DNA of 8,278 nt from a bacterium (lineage in GTDB: Bacteria > NPL-UPA2 > JAGMAN01). Under the pieces are notes generated by a model, which did no database searches, was not told where the DNA came from, and worked only from the letters and a program-made list of their open reading frames with translations. The position numbers and the translations under genes were made by a program. Below are positions 2,136-8,278 of the stretch, in pieces. The stretch spans positions 1 to 8,278 of the forward strand of contig JAGMAN010000017.1 in NCBI GenBank assembly GCA_023130215.1, written 5' to 3'. The stretch's first letter is position 1; each line of letters opens with the position of its first letter.

Positions 2136-3317
2136 CTAAAGAGCGCCTATTTGCCGGACATTAACAAAACAACCTGTCTCGGCAGATTCTTTCGCGGCCA
2201 GGCAGGCATAAACACTCTGAATACCTAACCATATTGAAGTACGTGATTTCCCTTTGCCGTGAATGACGTTGATAAAATCATAGGCTAGTTCTGAATCTCC
2301 GCCAAAATGGCTCATGCCCTCACCTGCCTTAACCGTGTCTGTAAATGGCGCATGATGACGGACAAACTTTAACTCATTCTTATACCAGTCAAATTTAATT
2401 GTCCCGTTATAACCGCTTATAGTTGCGCCGCGGGTTGCGGCATCACGGCGGCTGTAAAACACCTGGGTATAGACACCATGGACACCGGAAGCAAATTCAA
2501 TTAGGGCGCTGGAAGAATCTTCATTCATACCTGTTTCCGGTGTTCCGCAATCCCGGCTAAAAACACAAAGATGATCAAATAATGTCCCGCCTGAACCATT
2601 ACGTTTACGGTTCTGAGGACTTTCCAGACAGGTATCCACTTCCTTGCATTTTGAGCATACCAACCCTTTCTTCTTCTTGCCGCCAAAAACTCTACCCCGG
2701 GTATGCATAGCTGCAACACGGACAATATTAGAACCCATGAGATAACTCATATAATCAAAATCATGGGTTGCCTTTTGAAGAAAAAGCCCCTGCATTGTTT
2801 TAAAATCACGATAAGCAGCTGTGTCAAAATATACAGTGCCGTAATTAACATAGTTTACTGCTTGAATGTGTTCAGGACTGCCGATAGTTTTCTTCTCAAT
2901 ATATTCATGAGCAAGCGAACATAACGGAGAAACACGCAAAGGAAAACTGACCACTACCTCACATTTGGATTTTTCAAACGCGCGCTCAAGAGCTATAGCC
3001 TGCTCCATAGATACAGCCACTGGTTTTTCAAGATATAAAGGCAGGTCGTACCCTGCCGCCTCTATGGCATAAGACGCATGCAGATGACACCGCGTCCCAA
3101 TAGCCAGGGCATCAAGTTTTGCCTTACTGATCATGCTTTTCAGGTCTTTATAAAAAACCACATCCTTTTGATCGCATTCAGCTAACCTGGAACGAACCCC
3201 GTCTTCATCAGGATCAACTATTCCGGCAACACGAATATCCGGCTCAACCTCACGTAAACAGGATTTGATTACACCGCTGATGCGGCTCCCGTATCCAACA
3301 ACACCTAATCGTATCAT
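2136..3317 (-). CDS. Gfo/Idh/MocA family NAD(P)-dependent oxidoreductase
   Basis: This 393-residue enzyme belongs to the glucose-fructose oxidoreductase/inositol dehydrogenase family, which oxidises or reduces cyclic sugars and polyols. The N-terminal Rossmann fold shows LGVVGYGSR (4-12) with the dinucleotide-binding glycines, Asp35 after the second strand (GIVDP), and YLEKPVAVS at 95-103, where Lys98 of the EKP motif is a catalytic residue of the family. The C-terminal domain carries KATHDFDYM (182-190), with His185 and Asp188 at the usual active-site positions. An insertion at about 210-260 has five cysteines (C221, C224, C230, C251, C257), beginning CSKC. The ATG at 3317 is preceded by AGGAG at 9 nt. 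A candidate promoter lies in the 88-bp gap upstream. Lying between the GH4 remnant and the isomerase-like gene, it probably acts in degrading a glycoside or rare sugar. Arginine codons are mostly CGN (about 20 of 22). Family certain; substrate unknown. Confidence 0.92.
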   Translation of the reverse strand: MIRLGVVGYGSRISGVIKSCLREVEPDIRVAGIVDPDEDGVRSRLAECDQKDVVFYKDLKSMISKAKLDALAIGTRCHLHASYAIEAAGYDLPLYLEKPVAVSMEQAIALERAFEKSKCEVVVSFPLRVSPLCSLAHEYIEKKTIGSPEHIQAVNYVNYGTVYFDTAAYRDFKTMQGLFLQKATHDFDYMSYLMGSNIVRVAAMHTRGRVFGGKKKKGLVCSKCKEVDTCLESPQNRKRNGSGGTLFDHLCVFSRDCGTPETGMNEDSSSALIEFASGVHGVYTQVFYSRRDAATRGATISGYNGTIKFDWYKNELKFVRHHAPFTDTVKAGEGMSHFGGDSELAYDFINVIHGKGKSRTSIWLGIQSVYACLAAKESAETGCFVNVRQIGAL

Positions 3318-3405: not shown

Positions 3406-3783
3406 TCAAATCTTGACATTTCTAAATTGTGGTAGATATTTTTTATTTTTCTTCAGCATCTCATTCACCATCTTTTTGATTTCAGACAGGGACAGGACTG
3501 CTGCTGTCAACGGGTCATAAGCAACTGCCTGAAATACCAGTTCCGGGTCTCCGCTCAGAGCTGCTTCTACAGCCATCTCTTCTACGGCAATGTTTATATT
3601 ATCAAGGGCCGCGCATTGGGGCGGCAAAGCGCCTACATGAATGGGATTAAATCCGCGGCGATTAACCAGAACCGGCACTTCTACACATATGTCCTGAGGA
3701 AGGTTAGTAATTATTCCTGTATTAGGCACATTACCGTTAAATTCGAACGGCTCACCGCTTGGTTGTAAGGCGAGTTGCGTCGG
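3406..3783 (-). pseudogene. GH4 alpha-glycosidase, C-terminal remnant lacking the N-terminal part
   Basis: The frame encodes a clear C-terminal segment of glycoside hydrolase family 4 (the AglA/LplD/MelA type): [17 protein letters not shown], then [34 protein letters not shown], and [13 protein letters not shown] near the end, followed by the native stop at 3406. Family members have about 430 to 480 residues; only about 120 remain. The lost part includes the NAD-binding fold and the Cys and His that bind the catalytic metal, so activity is not expected. The frame is open from an in-frame TAA at 3784-3786. Homology extends upstream of the first candidate start (GTG at 3729) to about 3755, and that GTG has no ribosome binding site. 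It therefore looks like a 5'-deleted gene rather than a short real one. The break lies within tens of bases of the end of the PII-like gene, marking a recombination or assembly joint. An intact copy may once have headed the sugar operon. Confidence 0.85.
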
Positions 3784-3788
3784 TTAGC
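3750..3788. repeat. Imperfect inverted repeat at the gene-fragment junction
   Basis: GCTCACCG at 3750-3757 and CGGTTAGC at 3781-3788 are inverted repeats matching at 7 of 8 positions. They bound a 39-bp segment containing the place where GH4 homology fades and the PII-like gene has just ended. It matches no mobile element end that I recognise, and the arms do not fit integron attC core sites. It may be chance, or a remnant of the event that joined the two halves. Confidence 0.25.
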
Positions 3789-3795
3789 GGGTATC

Positions 3796-4131
3796 TTAAA
3801 ATTCGTGGGCCAATCCCTTTGCCCTGCTGACCGGTAGCGTGAAGAGAAGACCGGTTCCCGGCTTGTCTAAACTGCCACAGATATCTTCTATGACAGCGAT
3901 GACCTCATCCACCTTCTCATCCTCAACTACAGCGAAGATGGTTTTATTATAAGGTCTATTACCTTCCAGGAGGTGGCGCAGTCCAGCAAAGATAGGGATG
4001 TCGTGGGCTAAGATCCTTCCCATTCCTACGCTGTCGATGATGGTTGCTCCCTTAACTCCAACCTCAACAAAGGCAGAGAGAATCTCATCTAAATATTCTT
4101 CCTGATTAAGGATGAAGACTAATAACTGCAA
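3796..4131 (-). CDS. Small GlnB/PII-like protein
   Basis: This 111-residue protein looks like a divergent member of the PII (GlnB) superfamily, trimeric ferredoxin-like signalling proteins that bind nucleotides and small metabolites. It shows an opening strand LLVFILN (3-9), a helix, GATIIDSVGMGR (28-39) at the start of a T-loop-like segment (about 36-62), NKTIFAVVEDEKVDEVIAVI (62-81), and PGTGLLFTLPV (91-101) where PII proteins have the B-loop and the following strand. The Tyr-containing uridylylation site of classical GlnB is not evident, so control by GlnD is unlikely. The start is TTG at 4131: GGAGG lies 4 nt upstream, and an in-frame TAG two codons before that site rules out a longer form. 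It begins 9 nt after the apgM stop, so it is probably cotranscribed with rpsU and apgM. Superfamily placement is from pattern recognition; ligand and target are unknown. No terminator hairpin follows it. Confidence 0.7.
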   Translation of the reverse strand: MQLLVFILNQEEYLDEILSAFVEVGVKGATIIDSVGMGRILAHDIPIFAGLRHLLEGNRPYNKTIFAVVEDEKVDEVIAVIEDICGSLDKPGTGLLFTLPVSRAKGLAHEF

Positions 4132-4140
4132 ATTTCCTCC

Positions 4141-5361
4141 CTAAGCACCATATTTTGTGAGTTTAAGTGCGTGAGCAAGGAGCAGTGGCATAACCTCTAC
4201 GGCAGGAAAGCGTCCCAATCCACCCTGCCGCAGGCAGGCTTCCTCTGAGAATTTGTCCACCTTATCCGGACGGCACCAGGCCGATCGGAGAAGGAAGGGA
4301 ACTGAGTGCCAACTGTGAACCTTTAAGACAGAAGGAGTGGAGTGATCTCCCGTGACAGCTATCGCCTCTGGAGCGAGATGCCTTAGAGTTGGAATATTTC
4401 GATCCACCTCCTCAATCACCTTAACTTTTCTCTTGAAATCCCCATCTTCCCCGGCACTATCTGCTCCCTTAATGTGTAGAAAGAAAAAATCGTATTTATC
4501 AAAATTCTCTCTCAATGTCTTAAATTCCTCCTCTACTGTCTCTCCCGTAACTAAAATATCCATCCCCATCAGCTTGGCTATTCCTCGATACATGGGGTAA
4601 GCCGCAATGGCTGCTGAGCGCAAGCGATAAATTTCTAAGAATGAGGGAAGGCGGGGAGATTTAGCAAACCCCCGCAGTAAAATCATATTGGCCGGGTAAT
4701 GGCCAGACAAGATCTCCCTAGCCTGCTGGATGAATCCATTAACTATTCGAGCCGTCTTATTCGCCTCCGGAGAAAGAGCTTTCACCTCAATGGGCGCAAC
4801 GCCAGTCTTCTGGGGATCAGAGTCACTTAGCGCATCGGAGAGCCCTCTGCCCCTTAATACAACTACTGCCCGGTGTTCTTTCACCGCTCTTACGAAAAGC
4901 TGGGTCCCTTCCAACTGCATTCCATTCAGCAGCCGGCAAAGCTCCTTGTTAGTTTCAGTGCTGATCCTCCCTGCCCTTCTGTCCGCAACTTTCCCTTCTT
5001 CATCAACGGTAACAAAATTTATCCTGGCCGCTACATCATCTAACTCTAAATTAAATCCTATGCCGGCGGCAGCCAGAGCACCTCGTCCAACCTGAAACTC
5101 CAGAGGGTTATAACCAAAGAGAGCTAAGTGAGCCGGACCGCTTCCCGGAGTAACTCCTCGAGCGATTGGGTCAATCATCCCGCATATTGATTCACGGGCA
5201 AGGGTATCTAAGTCAGGAGTAGCCGCTTTCTCCAGCTCAGTGCTTCCTTCATCCCCCGGCAACCCTCCTAAACCGTCTATGACAACGAGCACTATCTTCG
5301 AGCTGGTGGGGACGGCTAAATCCTTCACCAGATCTTGCAGGTCGGGACTAACTCTCCTCAT
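4141..5361 (-). CDS. apgM: 2,3-bisphosphoglycerate-independent phosphoglycerate mutase, archaeal type
   Basis: It interconverts 3-phosphoglycerate and 2-phosphoglycerate in glycolysis and gluconeogenesis, in the cytoplasm. The protein is an alkaline-phosphatase-superfamily enzyme of the ApgM type. Metal ligands are seen in VLVVIDGLGG (Asp29), HIKGADSAGEDGDF (296-309), TGDHSTP (337-343; Asp339, His340) and HSWHSVPFLL (349-358). The nucleophile is Ser74 in TPGSGPAH, and DRRAGR (127-132) is the conserved substrate-binding stretch. The open frame extends to 5433, but the ATG at 5361 is chosen: it gives 406 residues, normal for the family, with about 21 residues before the first strand, and it overlaps rpsU by only 14 nt. 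The longer form would add 24 residues that merely shadow rpsU. The site before this ATG is poor (AAAAAAGGT), so translation is probably coupled to rpsU. ApgM is typical of archaea but known in several bacterial groups. Confidence 0.93.
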   Translation of the reverse strand: MRRVSPDLQDLVKDLAVPTSSKIVLVVIDGLGGLPGDEGSTELEKAATPDLDTLARESICGMIDPIARGVTPGSGPAHLALFGYNPLEFQVGRGALAAAGIGFNLELDDVAARINFVTVDEEGKVADRRAGRISTETNKELCRLLNGMQLEGTQLFVRAVKEHRAVVVLRGRGLSDALSDSDPQKTGVAPIEVKALSPEANKTARIVNGFIQQAREILSGHYPANMILLRGFAKSPRLPSFLEIYRLRSAAIAAYPMYRGIAKLMGMDILVTGETVEEEFKTLRENFDKYDFFFLHIKGADSAGEDGDFKRKVKVIEEVDRNIPTLRHLAPEAIAVTGDHSTPSVLKVHSWHSVPFLLRSAWCRPDKVDKFSEEACLRQGGLGRFPAVEVMPLLLAHALKLTKYGA

Positions 5362-5536
5362 ACCTTTTTTCTCTCTGCCTTGCCTTGAGAATCTTTCGGC
5401 GCTTGCGCTGGCTGGGCTTCTCATAATGCTCATGCTTCTTTATCTCCCTGAGAAGCCCCTCCTTATCCATCTTCTTCTTAAAGCGCCTTAAGGCCCTCTC
5501 CAGCGGCTCATCCTTTCTAACTTTTACTGTAGACAC
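5348..5536 (-). CDS. rpsU: Small ribosomal subunit protein bS21
   Basis: This 62-residue basic protein is bS21, a 30S subunit component near the mRNA exit and anti-Shine-Dalgarno region that aids translation initiation. The family signature is complete: EPLERALRRFKKK at 10-22, GLLREIKKHEHYEKPSQ at 27-43, then a lysine/arginine-rich tail RKRRKILKARQREKR. The start is GTG at 5536, giving the usual MSTVKVRKDE opening. GGAGG lies 11 nt upstream, somewhat far, and an ATG-TAG pair sits between them. It is the first gene after the purQ-rpsU intergenic promoter, and its last 14 nt overlap the start of apgM. Only bacteria carry this protein, so it fixes the domain of the host of the right half. Confidence 0.96.
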   Translation of the reverse strand: MSTVKVRKDEPLERALRRFKKKMDKEGLLREIKKHEHYEKPSQRKRRKILKARQREKRYEES

Positions 5537-5592: not shown

Positions 5593-6408
5593 TCAGAAAT
5601 TATCCTTGGCATATTCTACCGCATTCTTAAAAATTTGCAAACCATCTCCATGCTCCGGAACCTGGGCACCCTGCCTTTTCAGCCTTTCCCATTCCCTGGT
5701 CCAGTTGGGATGATTGGTAAAATAGAGGTATCTCTCCGGATGAGGCATCATGCCAAATATTCTCCCGGTAGAGTCACAGATGCCCGCAATGTCATTCAGA
5801 GAGCCATTTGGATTGTAAGGGAATTTACCATTGGCTGCCTGACCATTCGGCCGAGCATATTTAAAGACTATCTGGCCATCCTCTTCCAGCCTCTTTAAGA
5901 CATCATCCCCGGCAAAGAACTTTCCCTCGCCGTGGGCCACTGGAAGATAAAATCTCTTTATTCCCCTGGTAAAGATACACTTATCATCTTCAGCTCTCAA
6001 GTGAACCCATCTATCTTCAAATCTACCGGAATCGTTAAAGGTAAGAGTAGCCCGTTGTGTTCTGTAGCCTCCGTCAAAACCAGGCAGCAGGCCAGATTTG
6101 ACCATTACCTGGAAACCATTGCAGATTCCAATCACAAGTTTCCCTGCGCCGATGAATCTCTGAAGCTCATCCCCCAAATAGGTCTTCATCTTATTAGATA
6201 AGACCCTTCCTGAGGCAATATCATCCCCATAAGAGAACCCTCCCGGAAGAGCTAAGATCTGGTAGTTAGCCAAACTTTCCTGCCGCAGTATTAAGTCGTT
6301 TATGTGCACTCTCTTAGCCTCAGCTCCCGCCAGTCTGAAAGCCGCCTCCGTCTCCCAGTCGCAGTTAATACCATAACCTATTAAAACTAAAGCTCTTACC
6401 TTTTTCAT
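5593..6408 (-). CDS. purQ: Phosphoribosylformylglycinamidine synthase, glutaminase subunit PurQ
   Basis: PurQ releases ammonia from glutamine for PurL, which makes FGAM from FGAR in the fourth step of IMP synthesis. The 271-residue protein is a class I glutamine amidotransferase. LALPGGFSYGDDIASGR (52-68) is a conserved PurQ motif; GICNGFQ (94-100) carries the nucleophile Cys96; VAHGEGKFF (157-165) is also conserved; MPHPER (221-226) holds the triad residues His223 and Glu225. The opening GYGINCDWE replaces the FPGSNCD of the Bacillus-type enzyme. At 271 residues it is longer than the Bacillus form of about 227 and has a C-terminal extension after HPER. The ATG at 6408 follows the purL stop by 1 nt with no good ribosome site, which suggests translational coupling. 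No separate PurS is seen, as expected with a long PurL. Arginine codons are AGA/AGG in about 17 of 20 cases, unlike the left half of the window. Confidence 0.95.
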   Translation of the reverse strand: MKKVRALVLIGYGINCDWETEAAFRLAGAEAKRVHINDLILRQESLANYQILALPGGFSYGDDIASGRVLSNKMKTYLGDELQRFIGAGKLVIGICNGFQVMVKSGLLPGFDGGYRTQRATLTFNDSGRFEDRWVHLRAEDDKCIFTRGIKRFYLPVAHGEGKFFAGDDVLKRLEEDGQIVFKYARPNGQAANGKFPYNPNGSLNDIAGICDSTGRIFGMMPHPERYLYFTNHPNWTREWERLKRQGAQVPEHGDGLQIFKNAVEYAKDNF

Positions 6409-6409
6409 T

Positions 6410-8278
6410 TCACCATCTCAAGGTCCTTTTATAAGCTTCTTTCAATTTATCGACATCCGCTTTTATAATAATATCATGATGATTTTTGATTTTTTTATTC
6501 AGTCCCCTAACAGTGAATTCTCCATCTTCTGTTACCTGGCCAATATGGGCGAAGACATTTCCCTTCATCAGTGTTTCAAATTCGTCTTTCTTCTGCGCCG
6601 ATACGGTGACTACGAACCTACCTTGAGATTCTGAGAAGAGCAGTTTATCATTCCTTCCAAGATTATCCGCCGGCACCTTGGCTAAGTCCACATCCATCCC
6701 CAGACCACCAGCAAAGGCAGTTTCCGCCAGAGCCATCCCTAAACCGCCATCCGAGCAGCCGTGCGCTGATGCAACCAGTCCCCTATTCACTGCCTCACTT
6801 AAGGCTTGATATAATTTTCTTGCCTTCCCAACATCTACTTTTGGAACTTTGTTCCCAATGAACCTTTTGCCAGTGAGCTTCTCCCCTATGAGGGCATAAT
6901 ATTCTGAAGCTCCTAATTCGTCCACAGTCTCTCCTAAAATATAGACTAAATCGCCGGGCATCTTGGCGTCCATAGTCACGCATTTGCGGACATCTTCTGT
7001 TATCCCCAAAGCAGAGATCAACAAAGTAGGAGGAACAGATATCTTAACCGGCCCATTCTGGGCATCAAACCCATTGAAGTCATTGAACATGCTATCCTTC
7101 CCGGAAATAAATGGTGCTCCAAAACCGGTGGCGCAGTCATAACAGGCCTGAGCGGCCCTCTTAAGCTGAGCCAGTCTCCCCGGCTCGTTGGAACTTGACC
7201 AGCAAAAGTTATCCAGGAGCGCTATTCTTCTTAGGGTGCCACCGATAGCAATGACATTTCTCACGGCTTCATCAATACAGCAGGCAGCCATGTGGTAGGT
7301 ATCTATATCGCTGTAGTTTGGCTTTATGGCGGTGGTGATAATAATTCCCTGCCAGGAATGAGTCAGTGGCTTTATCACGCTTGCATGGCTATGGACATCA
7401 TTCCCCACCCCCACCAGTGGCTTTATCACGGAAGCGCCCTGCACTTCGTGGTCATACTGTCTGACCACATATTCCTTGCTACAGATGTTGAGACGGGAGA
7501 GCATCTCTTTCAACGTAGTCGTCAGGTCCCCCGGCTCCCGGAACTGGGGCTCTTCCTCTCTTTCAACCTTCCATCTTCCCTTCATCTTCCTCTGGGGTAG
7601 GCCCTGGTGCAAGAAGTTCATATCAACAGACATGATTGTTTTACCCTGATACTTCACCTGGCATTTTCCACTGTCAGTAAACTGTCCAAGGGCGGTTACC
7701 TCTACCCCCCACTTCTCAGCCAACTTCTGGAAACTCTCCAGTTTCTCCGGCTCTATGGCTAAAGTCATCCTCTCCTGGGCCTCGCTCACCCATATTTCCC
7801 AGGGGTCCAATCCTTCATACTTCAGTGGTGCATTGGTCAGGTCAACCGAACATCCACCACTCTCCCGGCCCATTTCACCTATTGAACAGGAAAGCCCTCC
7901 CGCTCCGTTATCGGTGATACTATTATATAGTCCAAGGTCACGAGCCTCTATGAGCATATCATGCATCTTCTTCTGAGTTATGGGGTCACCAATCTGAACA
8001 GCGGTAGCCGGGCTTCCCGCATGGAGGCTCTCGGAAGAGAAGGTAGCTCCATGAATTCCATCCTTGCCTATTCGTCCTCCGGCCATGACGATGAGGTCAC
8101 CCGGTCTTGCCTGCTTGGTGTGGGATGGCTCACCCTTTATTTGAGCAGGCATCATCCCCAGTGTCCCCACATAGACCAATGGCTTACCCAAGTAACGCTC
8201 ATCAAACCTTAAGAATCCCCAGGCAGTGGGAATCCCTGATTTATTTCCACCATCTTCTACTCCCTTCCTCACTCCTTC
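6410..8278 (-). CDS. purL: Phosphoribosylformylglycinamidine synthase PurL, C-terminal part
   Basis: This is the ATP-dependent synthetase subunit that converts FGAR to FGAM with ammonia supplied by PurQ. The frame is open to the window edge, so 622 residues are present and the N-terminus lies beyond 8278. Numbering from the GTG codon at 8272, visible motifs are GVEDGGNKSGIPT (4-16), DNGAGGLSCSIGEMG (121-135), QYDHEVQGASVIKPL (272-286), DTYHMAACCIDEAVRNV (324-340), DNFCW (354-358), PFISGKDSMFND (387-398), VPPTLLISALG (413-423) and SDGGLGMALAETAFAGGLG (507-525). These are the tandem AIR-synthase-type halves of PurL. The sequence resembles the long PurL type of nearly 1000 residues. In that case about a third is missing here, including the catalytic His region. 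No true start is visible; the GTG at 8272 is internal. The stop overlaps the purQ start region with a 1-nt gap. Confidence 0.95.
   Translation of the reverse strand, partial: EGVRKGVEDGGNKSGIPTAWGFLRFDERYLGKPLVYVGTLGMMPAQIKGEPSHTKQARPGDLIVMAGGRIGKDGIHGATFSSESLHAGSPATAVQIGDPITQKKMHDMLIEARDLGLYNSITDNGAGGLSCSIGEMGRESGGCSVDLTNAPLKYEGLDPWEIWVSEAQERMTLAIEPEKLESFQKLAEKWGVEVTALGQFTDSGKCQVKYQGKTIMSVDMNFLHQGLPQRKMKGRWKVEREEEPQFREPGDLTTTLKEMLSRLNICSKEYVVRQYDHEVQGASVIKPLVGVGNDVHSHASVIKPLTHSWQGIIITTAIKPNYSDIDTYHMAACCIDEAVRNVIAIGGTLRRIALLDNFCWSSSNEPGRLAQLKRAAQACYDCATGFGAPFISGKDSMFNDFNGFDAQNGPVKISVPPTLLISALGITEDVRKCVTMDAKMPGDLVYILGETVDELGASEYYALIGEKLTGKRFIGNKVPKVDVGKARKLYQALSEAVNRGLVASAHGCSDGGLGMALAETAFAGGLGMDVDLAKVPADNLGRNDKLLFSESQGRFVVTVSAQKKDEFETLMKGNVFAHIGQVTEDGEFTVRGLNKKIKNHHDIIIKADVDKLKEAYKRTLRW
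7364..7430 (-). repeat. 16-bp direct repeat inside purL
   Basis: CAGTGGCTTTATCACG occurs at 7364-7379 and again at 7415-7430, 51 bp apart and in the same frame. The protein therefore carries ASVIKPL twice (280-286 and 297-303, numbering from the GTG at 8272). The intervening bases are not repeated. The PurL family has two related motifs at these places, so the repeat may reflect real homology made identical by chance or by local gene conversion. Confidence 0.7.

Follow-up and report, generated by a model that had tools for sequence, protein, structure and literature searches.

Blocks of DNA acquired by horizontal transfer (genomic islands) combine atypical composition, patchy distribution, a truncated gene at the edge and conserved neighbours on the far side. 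Chimeric metagenome contigs likewise show a change of composition and gene history at a single position inside a gene. The locus described here invites both comparisons. The window, which is the entire 8,278-base contig C46 of draft genome G000 (1.01 Mb in 136 contigs; completeness 90%, contamination 0.08%), carries nine genes, every one on the minus strand, and at 3756-3796 two blocks of unlike composition and history meet. A GH4 gene is truncated at this point, gene content changes, similarity to relatives has sharp limits, and the genes to the left have foreign or patchily distributed relatives. A preliminary description had recognised this join and offered recombination or transfer, or a chimeric contig, as its origin; the join stands, and both origins are weighed below, with the analysis leaning to a real event.

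The right-hand block is a conserved housekeeping cluster. It consists of purL (6410-8278, its 5' end past the contig edge), purQ (5593-6408), a small gene that we take from its sequence, without a family search, to be rpsU-like (5348-5536), the cofactor-independent phosphoglycerate mutase gene apgM (4141-5433; PRK04135, 585 bits) and a PII-like regulator gene (3796-4131; PF00543, 4.5e-08). At its longest, the apgM frame shares 86 bases (5348-5433) with the rpsU-like gene; translation of apgM probably starts from an ATG inside this frame, near 5361. The order purL-purQ-rpsU-apgM-PII is kept in G003 and G004, which represent two further families of the order, at identities of 70-83% and 55-67%, respectively (purL, 71% and 67%; purQ, 70% and 65%; rpsU-like, 83% and 64%; apgM, 71% and 59%; PII, 81% and 55%). 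In both genomes PII lies directly 3' of apgM and closes the conserved cluster, and the tetranucleotide profile of the block is typical of its own genome (z -0.8).

What follows PII differs from genome to genome. In G003 it is followed by what we take from the sequences to be a DUF523-like gene, an IMPDH/GMP-reductase-like gene and dnaE, and in G004 by a tRNA-Gly gene, so the region downstream of PII is in any case variable within this taxonomic order. The same arrangement in related genomes, which the preliminary description had regarded as evidence against a chimera, was not found in G003 or G004, and the join was not seen in any second genome; nothing matching the region was found in G001 and G002, which are of the same genus but incomplete. 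The IMPDH/GMP-reductase-like gene of G003 has no match in G000, so the displaced neighbour of PII cannot be traced.

At the join itself, similarity to G003, the nearest relative, ends three bases past the PII stop, the bases TAAGAT matching with the stop included, and the roughly 37 joint bases that follow are unmatched anywhere else in G000. The 39-base joint (3757-3795) contains a TAA at 3786-3784, 28 bases upstream of the start of GH4 similarity at 3756, which closes the GH4 frame on its upstream side and bears out the earlier reading that this frame opens 12 bases beyond the PII stop at 3796. GH4-like coding then runs uninterrupted from 3756 to a stop at 3406. The similarity begins sharply: downstream of 3756 nucleotide identity to the GH4 gene on contig C16 of the same genome is 75%, whereas the 45 bases upstream are only 16-20% identical to the intact GH4 genes (C16 of G000, 16%, and C99 of G003), although this is a region in which those two genes share 78% identity. 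A stretch of 76 bases from the junction occurs once in G000 and is shared by no other contig of that genome, so that no assembly fork is visible.

Several candidate explanations for the joint sequence were discarded. A repeat, an insertion-sequence end or an adaptor was rejected on the basis of the single occurrence in the genome, and a structured RNA or tRNA target because there was no Rfam hit, no tRNA and a fold z of only -1.07. Searches among plasmids gave no match to the joint, and a 22-mer from it was not found in viral contigs. A 14-base imperfect repeat (3732-3745 and 3792-3805) flanks the join and was considered as microhomology, but is taken as chance because ten such families occur within 900 bases. 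The 8,278-base window holds no integrase, transposase or tRNA gene.

The GH4 remnant (3406-3756) corresponds to residues 326-442 of the 442-residue intact homologue in G003, leaving 26% of the gene and confirming, at 74% missing, the loss of about 70% from the 5' side that had been proposed. Its assignment to GH4 is firm: the match to PF11975, although partial, is strong (1.1e-30; profile positions 128-211, that is, 84 of 211). The N-terminal NAD-binding domain PF02056 is missing. Compared with MelA-type alpha-galactosidases of GH4 (PRK15076/NF011657), the fragment scores 140 bits over positions 318-430 of 432, well under the full-length cut-off of 486, and unlike a full GH4 protein it has no NAD-binding N-terminal domain. 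A full family of short GH4-like proteins, which would have made truncation the wrong reading, did not appear; elsewhere in the phylum the hits are to long genes or to the ends of contigs.

An intact GH4 gene, for which the preliminary description had proposed a search, is present both in G003 and, apparently, in G000 itself. The other GH4 of G000 lies in two pieces, residues 4-170 on C60 and 164-442 on C16, and the ends of these contigs (L080 1-25 and L005 1-25) overlap by exactly 25 bases, so that G000 seems to have a single complete GH4 gene, in other surroundings. Upstream of it, on C60, is a gene for an AMP-binding enzyme, and downstream, on C16, are what we take from sequence to be pseudopilin-like genes. 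The 25-base overlap lies within a motif of GH4 coding sequence, as though the sample contained a further GH4 gene with the same word.

The fragment is 85-87% identical in protein sequence to the C16 gene and 76% to that of C99. Over the 112 codons shared with the own-genome GH4, protein identity is 87% and third-position identity 41%, near the 38% found between families; the fragment is therefore not a recent duplicate of that gene. Differences from C16 number 11, 8 and 69 at codon positions 1, 2 and 3, with no sign of decay. Because positions 1 and 2 are conserved, the truncation would be either recent or an artefact; the pattern is that of a gene that was working until very recently or is still working in another organism. 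In this comparison dS is saturated and gives no age for the cut. The 5' part of this GH4 copy was not found in the genome, in which the sole GH4 5' part belongs to the other locus.

Composition changes at the same place. The earlier hand counts of AGA/AGG among arginine codons were accurate to within a codon: 17/20 in purQ, 21/28 in purL, 4/14 in the fucI-like gene and 2/22 in the Gfo/Idh gene. In 78 sampled genes of G000 the mean share is 0.55 (sd 0.14, lowest 0.12), so that none has as low a share as the Gfo/Idh gene, and the fucI-like gene ranks under roughly the fifth percentile; the DUF4432 gene (8/14) and apgM (17/33) are ordinary. Against a background of about 150 kb of own-genome stretches, the left 3.75 kb lies at a distance of 0.146 from the genome mean (z +3.2), outside the range of all 33 sampled chunks (mean 0.086, maximum 0.138). 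Its distances to G005, G008 and G007 are smaller (0.113-0.125), yet it is a good fit to none of them. The composition profiles that had been suggested as a check thus set the two sides apart, with a change-point between 3723 and 3783 in three of four comparisons (3723 against G008, 3730 against G005 with G007 and 3783 against G004); the fourth, against G003, places it at 2822, is supported by just 8 bits and has no discriminating power. The GH4 fragment contributes only about 4-5 bits to the change-point, so that composition alone cannot assign it to either side. Comparable atypical stretches occur in three sampled contigs of G000, with 63-66 bits as against 68 here. On contig C1 of G000 (L085, 2703-4385), an AbiEii-type gene and its neighbour have low AGA/AGG and low GC3, and this stretch is likely to have been acquired.

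Behind the fragment lie an intact Gfo/Idh/MocA oxidoreductase gene (2136-3317; PF01408/PF22725), an intact gene for a fucose/arabinose-isomerase-like (fucI-like) protein (725-2107; weak PF02952, NF048012) and a DUF4432 gene cut by the contig end (1-675; PF14486, 7e-61). The best relative of the DUF4432 protein, at 79%, is in G008, which belongs to another family of the phylum and whose PII is only 48% identical to that of the window. The best relative of the isomerase is in G286, of another phylum (75%), and those of the oxidoreductase (66-72%) are spread over Omnitrophota, Lentisphaerae, Armatimonadota, Gemmatimonadetes, Actinomycetota and UBP13. With PII as yardstick, all three proteins have relatives in distant lineages that are closer than the species tree predicts. 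In the same-genus and same-order genomes, the isomerase, DUF4432 and close relatives of the oxidoreductase are absent.

Within the phylum, the sole close relative of the isomerase is a broken remnant in G008. There, on contig C31 (L082, 4043-5349), the last 19 residues of the oxidoreductase (84%) remain beside an intact-looking class II aldolase gene and the broken isomerase gene (pieces at 68% and 88%), adjoined by an AbiEii gene. The oxidoreductase/isomerase pair was thus once present in G008, in another family of the phylum, and has decayed there, leaving a scar comparable to that of the window. Gfo/Idh oxidoreductases at 55-72% identity recur in several phyla not related to one another, beside differing neighbours (L068-L079), which suggests frequent transfer. 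The combination of GH4, gfo, isomerase and DUF4432 was found at none of 12 oxidoreductase loci, nor beside the isomerase of G286, and the idea that it is a known operon was dropped. On contig C17 of G008 (L081, 7555-10194), a Gfo/Idh gene directly precedes a full GH4 gene (41% and about 31% identity), so that the two stand in the opposite order to those of the window. The oxidoreductase and isomerase might, as the G008 remnant suggests, belong to a small roving set of sugar genes that has entered small-genome bacteria in this phylum again and again and is prone to decay at its edges, a reading that we consider improbable.

By a modest balance of probability, the join is the real scar of a gene transfer combined with a deletion. 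A real event is preferred because the junction is found in no other contig of G000 and because similar atypical stretches exist elsewhere in the genome; the comparable scar in G008 also speaks for it. A sugar-use block of GH4, Gfo/Idh oxidoreductase, isomerase-like and DUF4432 genes would have been acquired from outside and placed directly downstream of purL-purQ-rpsU-apgM-PII, and illegitimate recombination or a deletion would have made the join, removing the former neighbour of PII and the first three quarters of GH4. The fragment would be dead, as it lacks the NAD-binding half and a good start site, and the three genes behind it look intact. Both the presence of the join in a living genome and this order of events are what we infer. 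Counting against a scar are the undecayed state of the fragment, by which the cut would have to be recent, the absence of mobility genes and tRNA from the window, the failure to find a 5' part of this GH4 copy in the genome, and the absence of a second genome with the join.

It is possible, if short of probable, that the contig is instead chimeric, an assembly or ligation artefact having joined the housekeeping cluster of G000 to the sugar block of another community member, probably a relative in the same phylum, whose GH4 gene would be whole. Both composition and gene history change only tens of bases from the truncation, the left block departs from its own genome, and the fragment, like part of a living gene, shows undiminished purifying selection, all of which would agree with such an artefact, as would the lack of a second example; that the other GH4 gene is broken between contigs overlapping by 25 bases suggests short-word assembly. 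An assembly-graph error needs a shared word, however, and the 39 joint bases resemble neither the relatives of PII nor GH4. The junction leaves no visible fork, and bin contamination is low (0.08%), although the markers behind this figure are blind to sugar genes. That the fragment is instead a native duplicate, a second own GH4 copy that lost its 5' part among old residents of unusual composition, is very unlikely: its closest relative found is indeed the GH4 of its own genome, but the third-position identity (0.41 against 0.38) indicates that the copies parted long ago, and the sister genomes lack close relatives of the neighbouring genes. It is hardly to be believed that the 107-residue frame opening at GTG 3729 yields a functional short protein. 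That frame is open and its residues are conserved, but it is without PF02056 and the first 127 of the 211 positions of PF11975, no clear ribosome-binding site precedes the GTG, and the hits in the phylum revealed no short full-family relative.

Whether the join is real or chimeric, caution is warranted against treating the nine genes of the contig as a single locus. If it is chimeric, half of the contig belongs out of the bin before fucose-like or galactoside metabolism is inferred for this organism. The 3.7 kb seen of the left block differ from described genomic islands in having no mobility genes or tRNA, and their far edge lies beyond the contig; the join differs from those of chimeric metagenome contigs in having no shared word and no fork within the bin. 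The favoured scar of transfer and deletion, if real, would be one recent-looking case in which sugar genes have taken the place of whatever lay downstream of a conserved cluster, in a draft genome of 1 Mb. Neither a scar of this sort nor a chimera is a new kind of thing.
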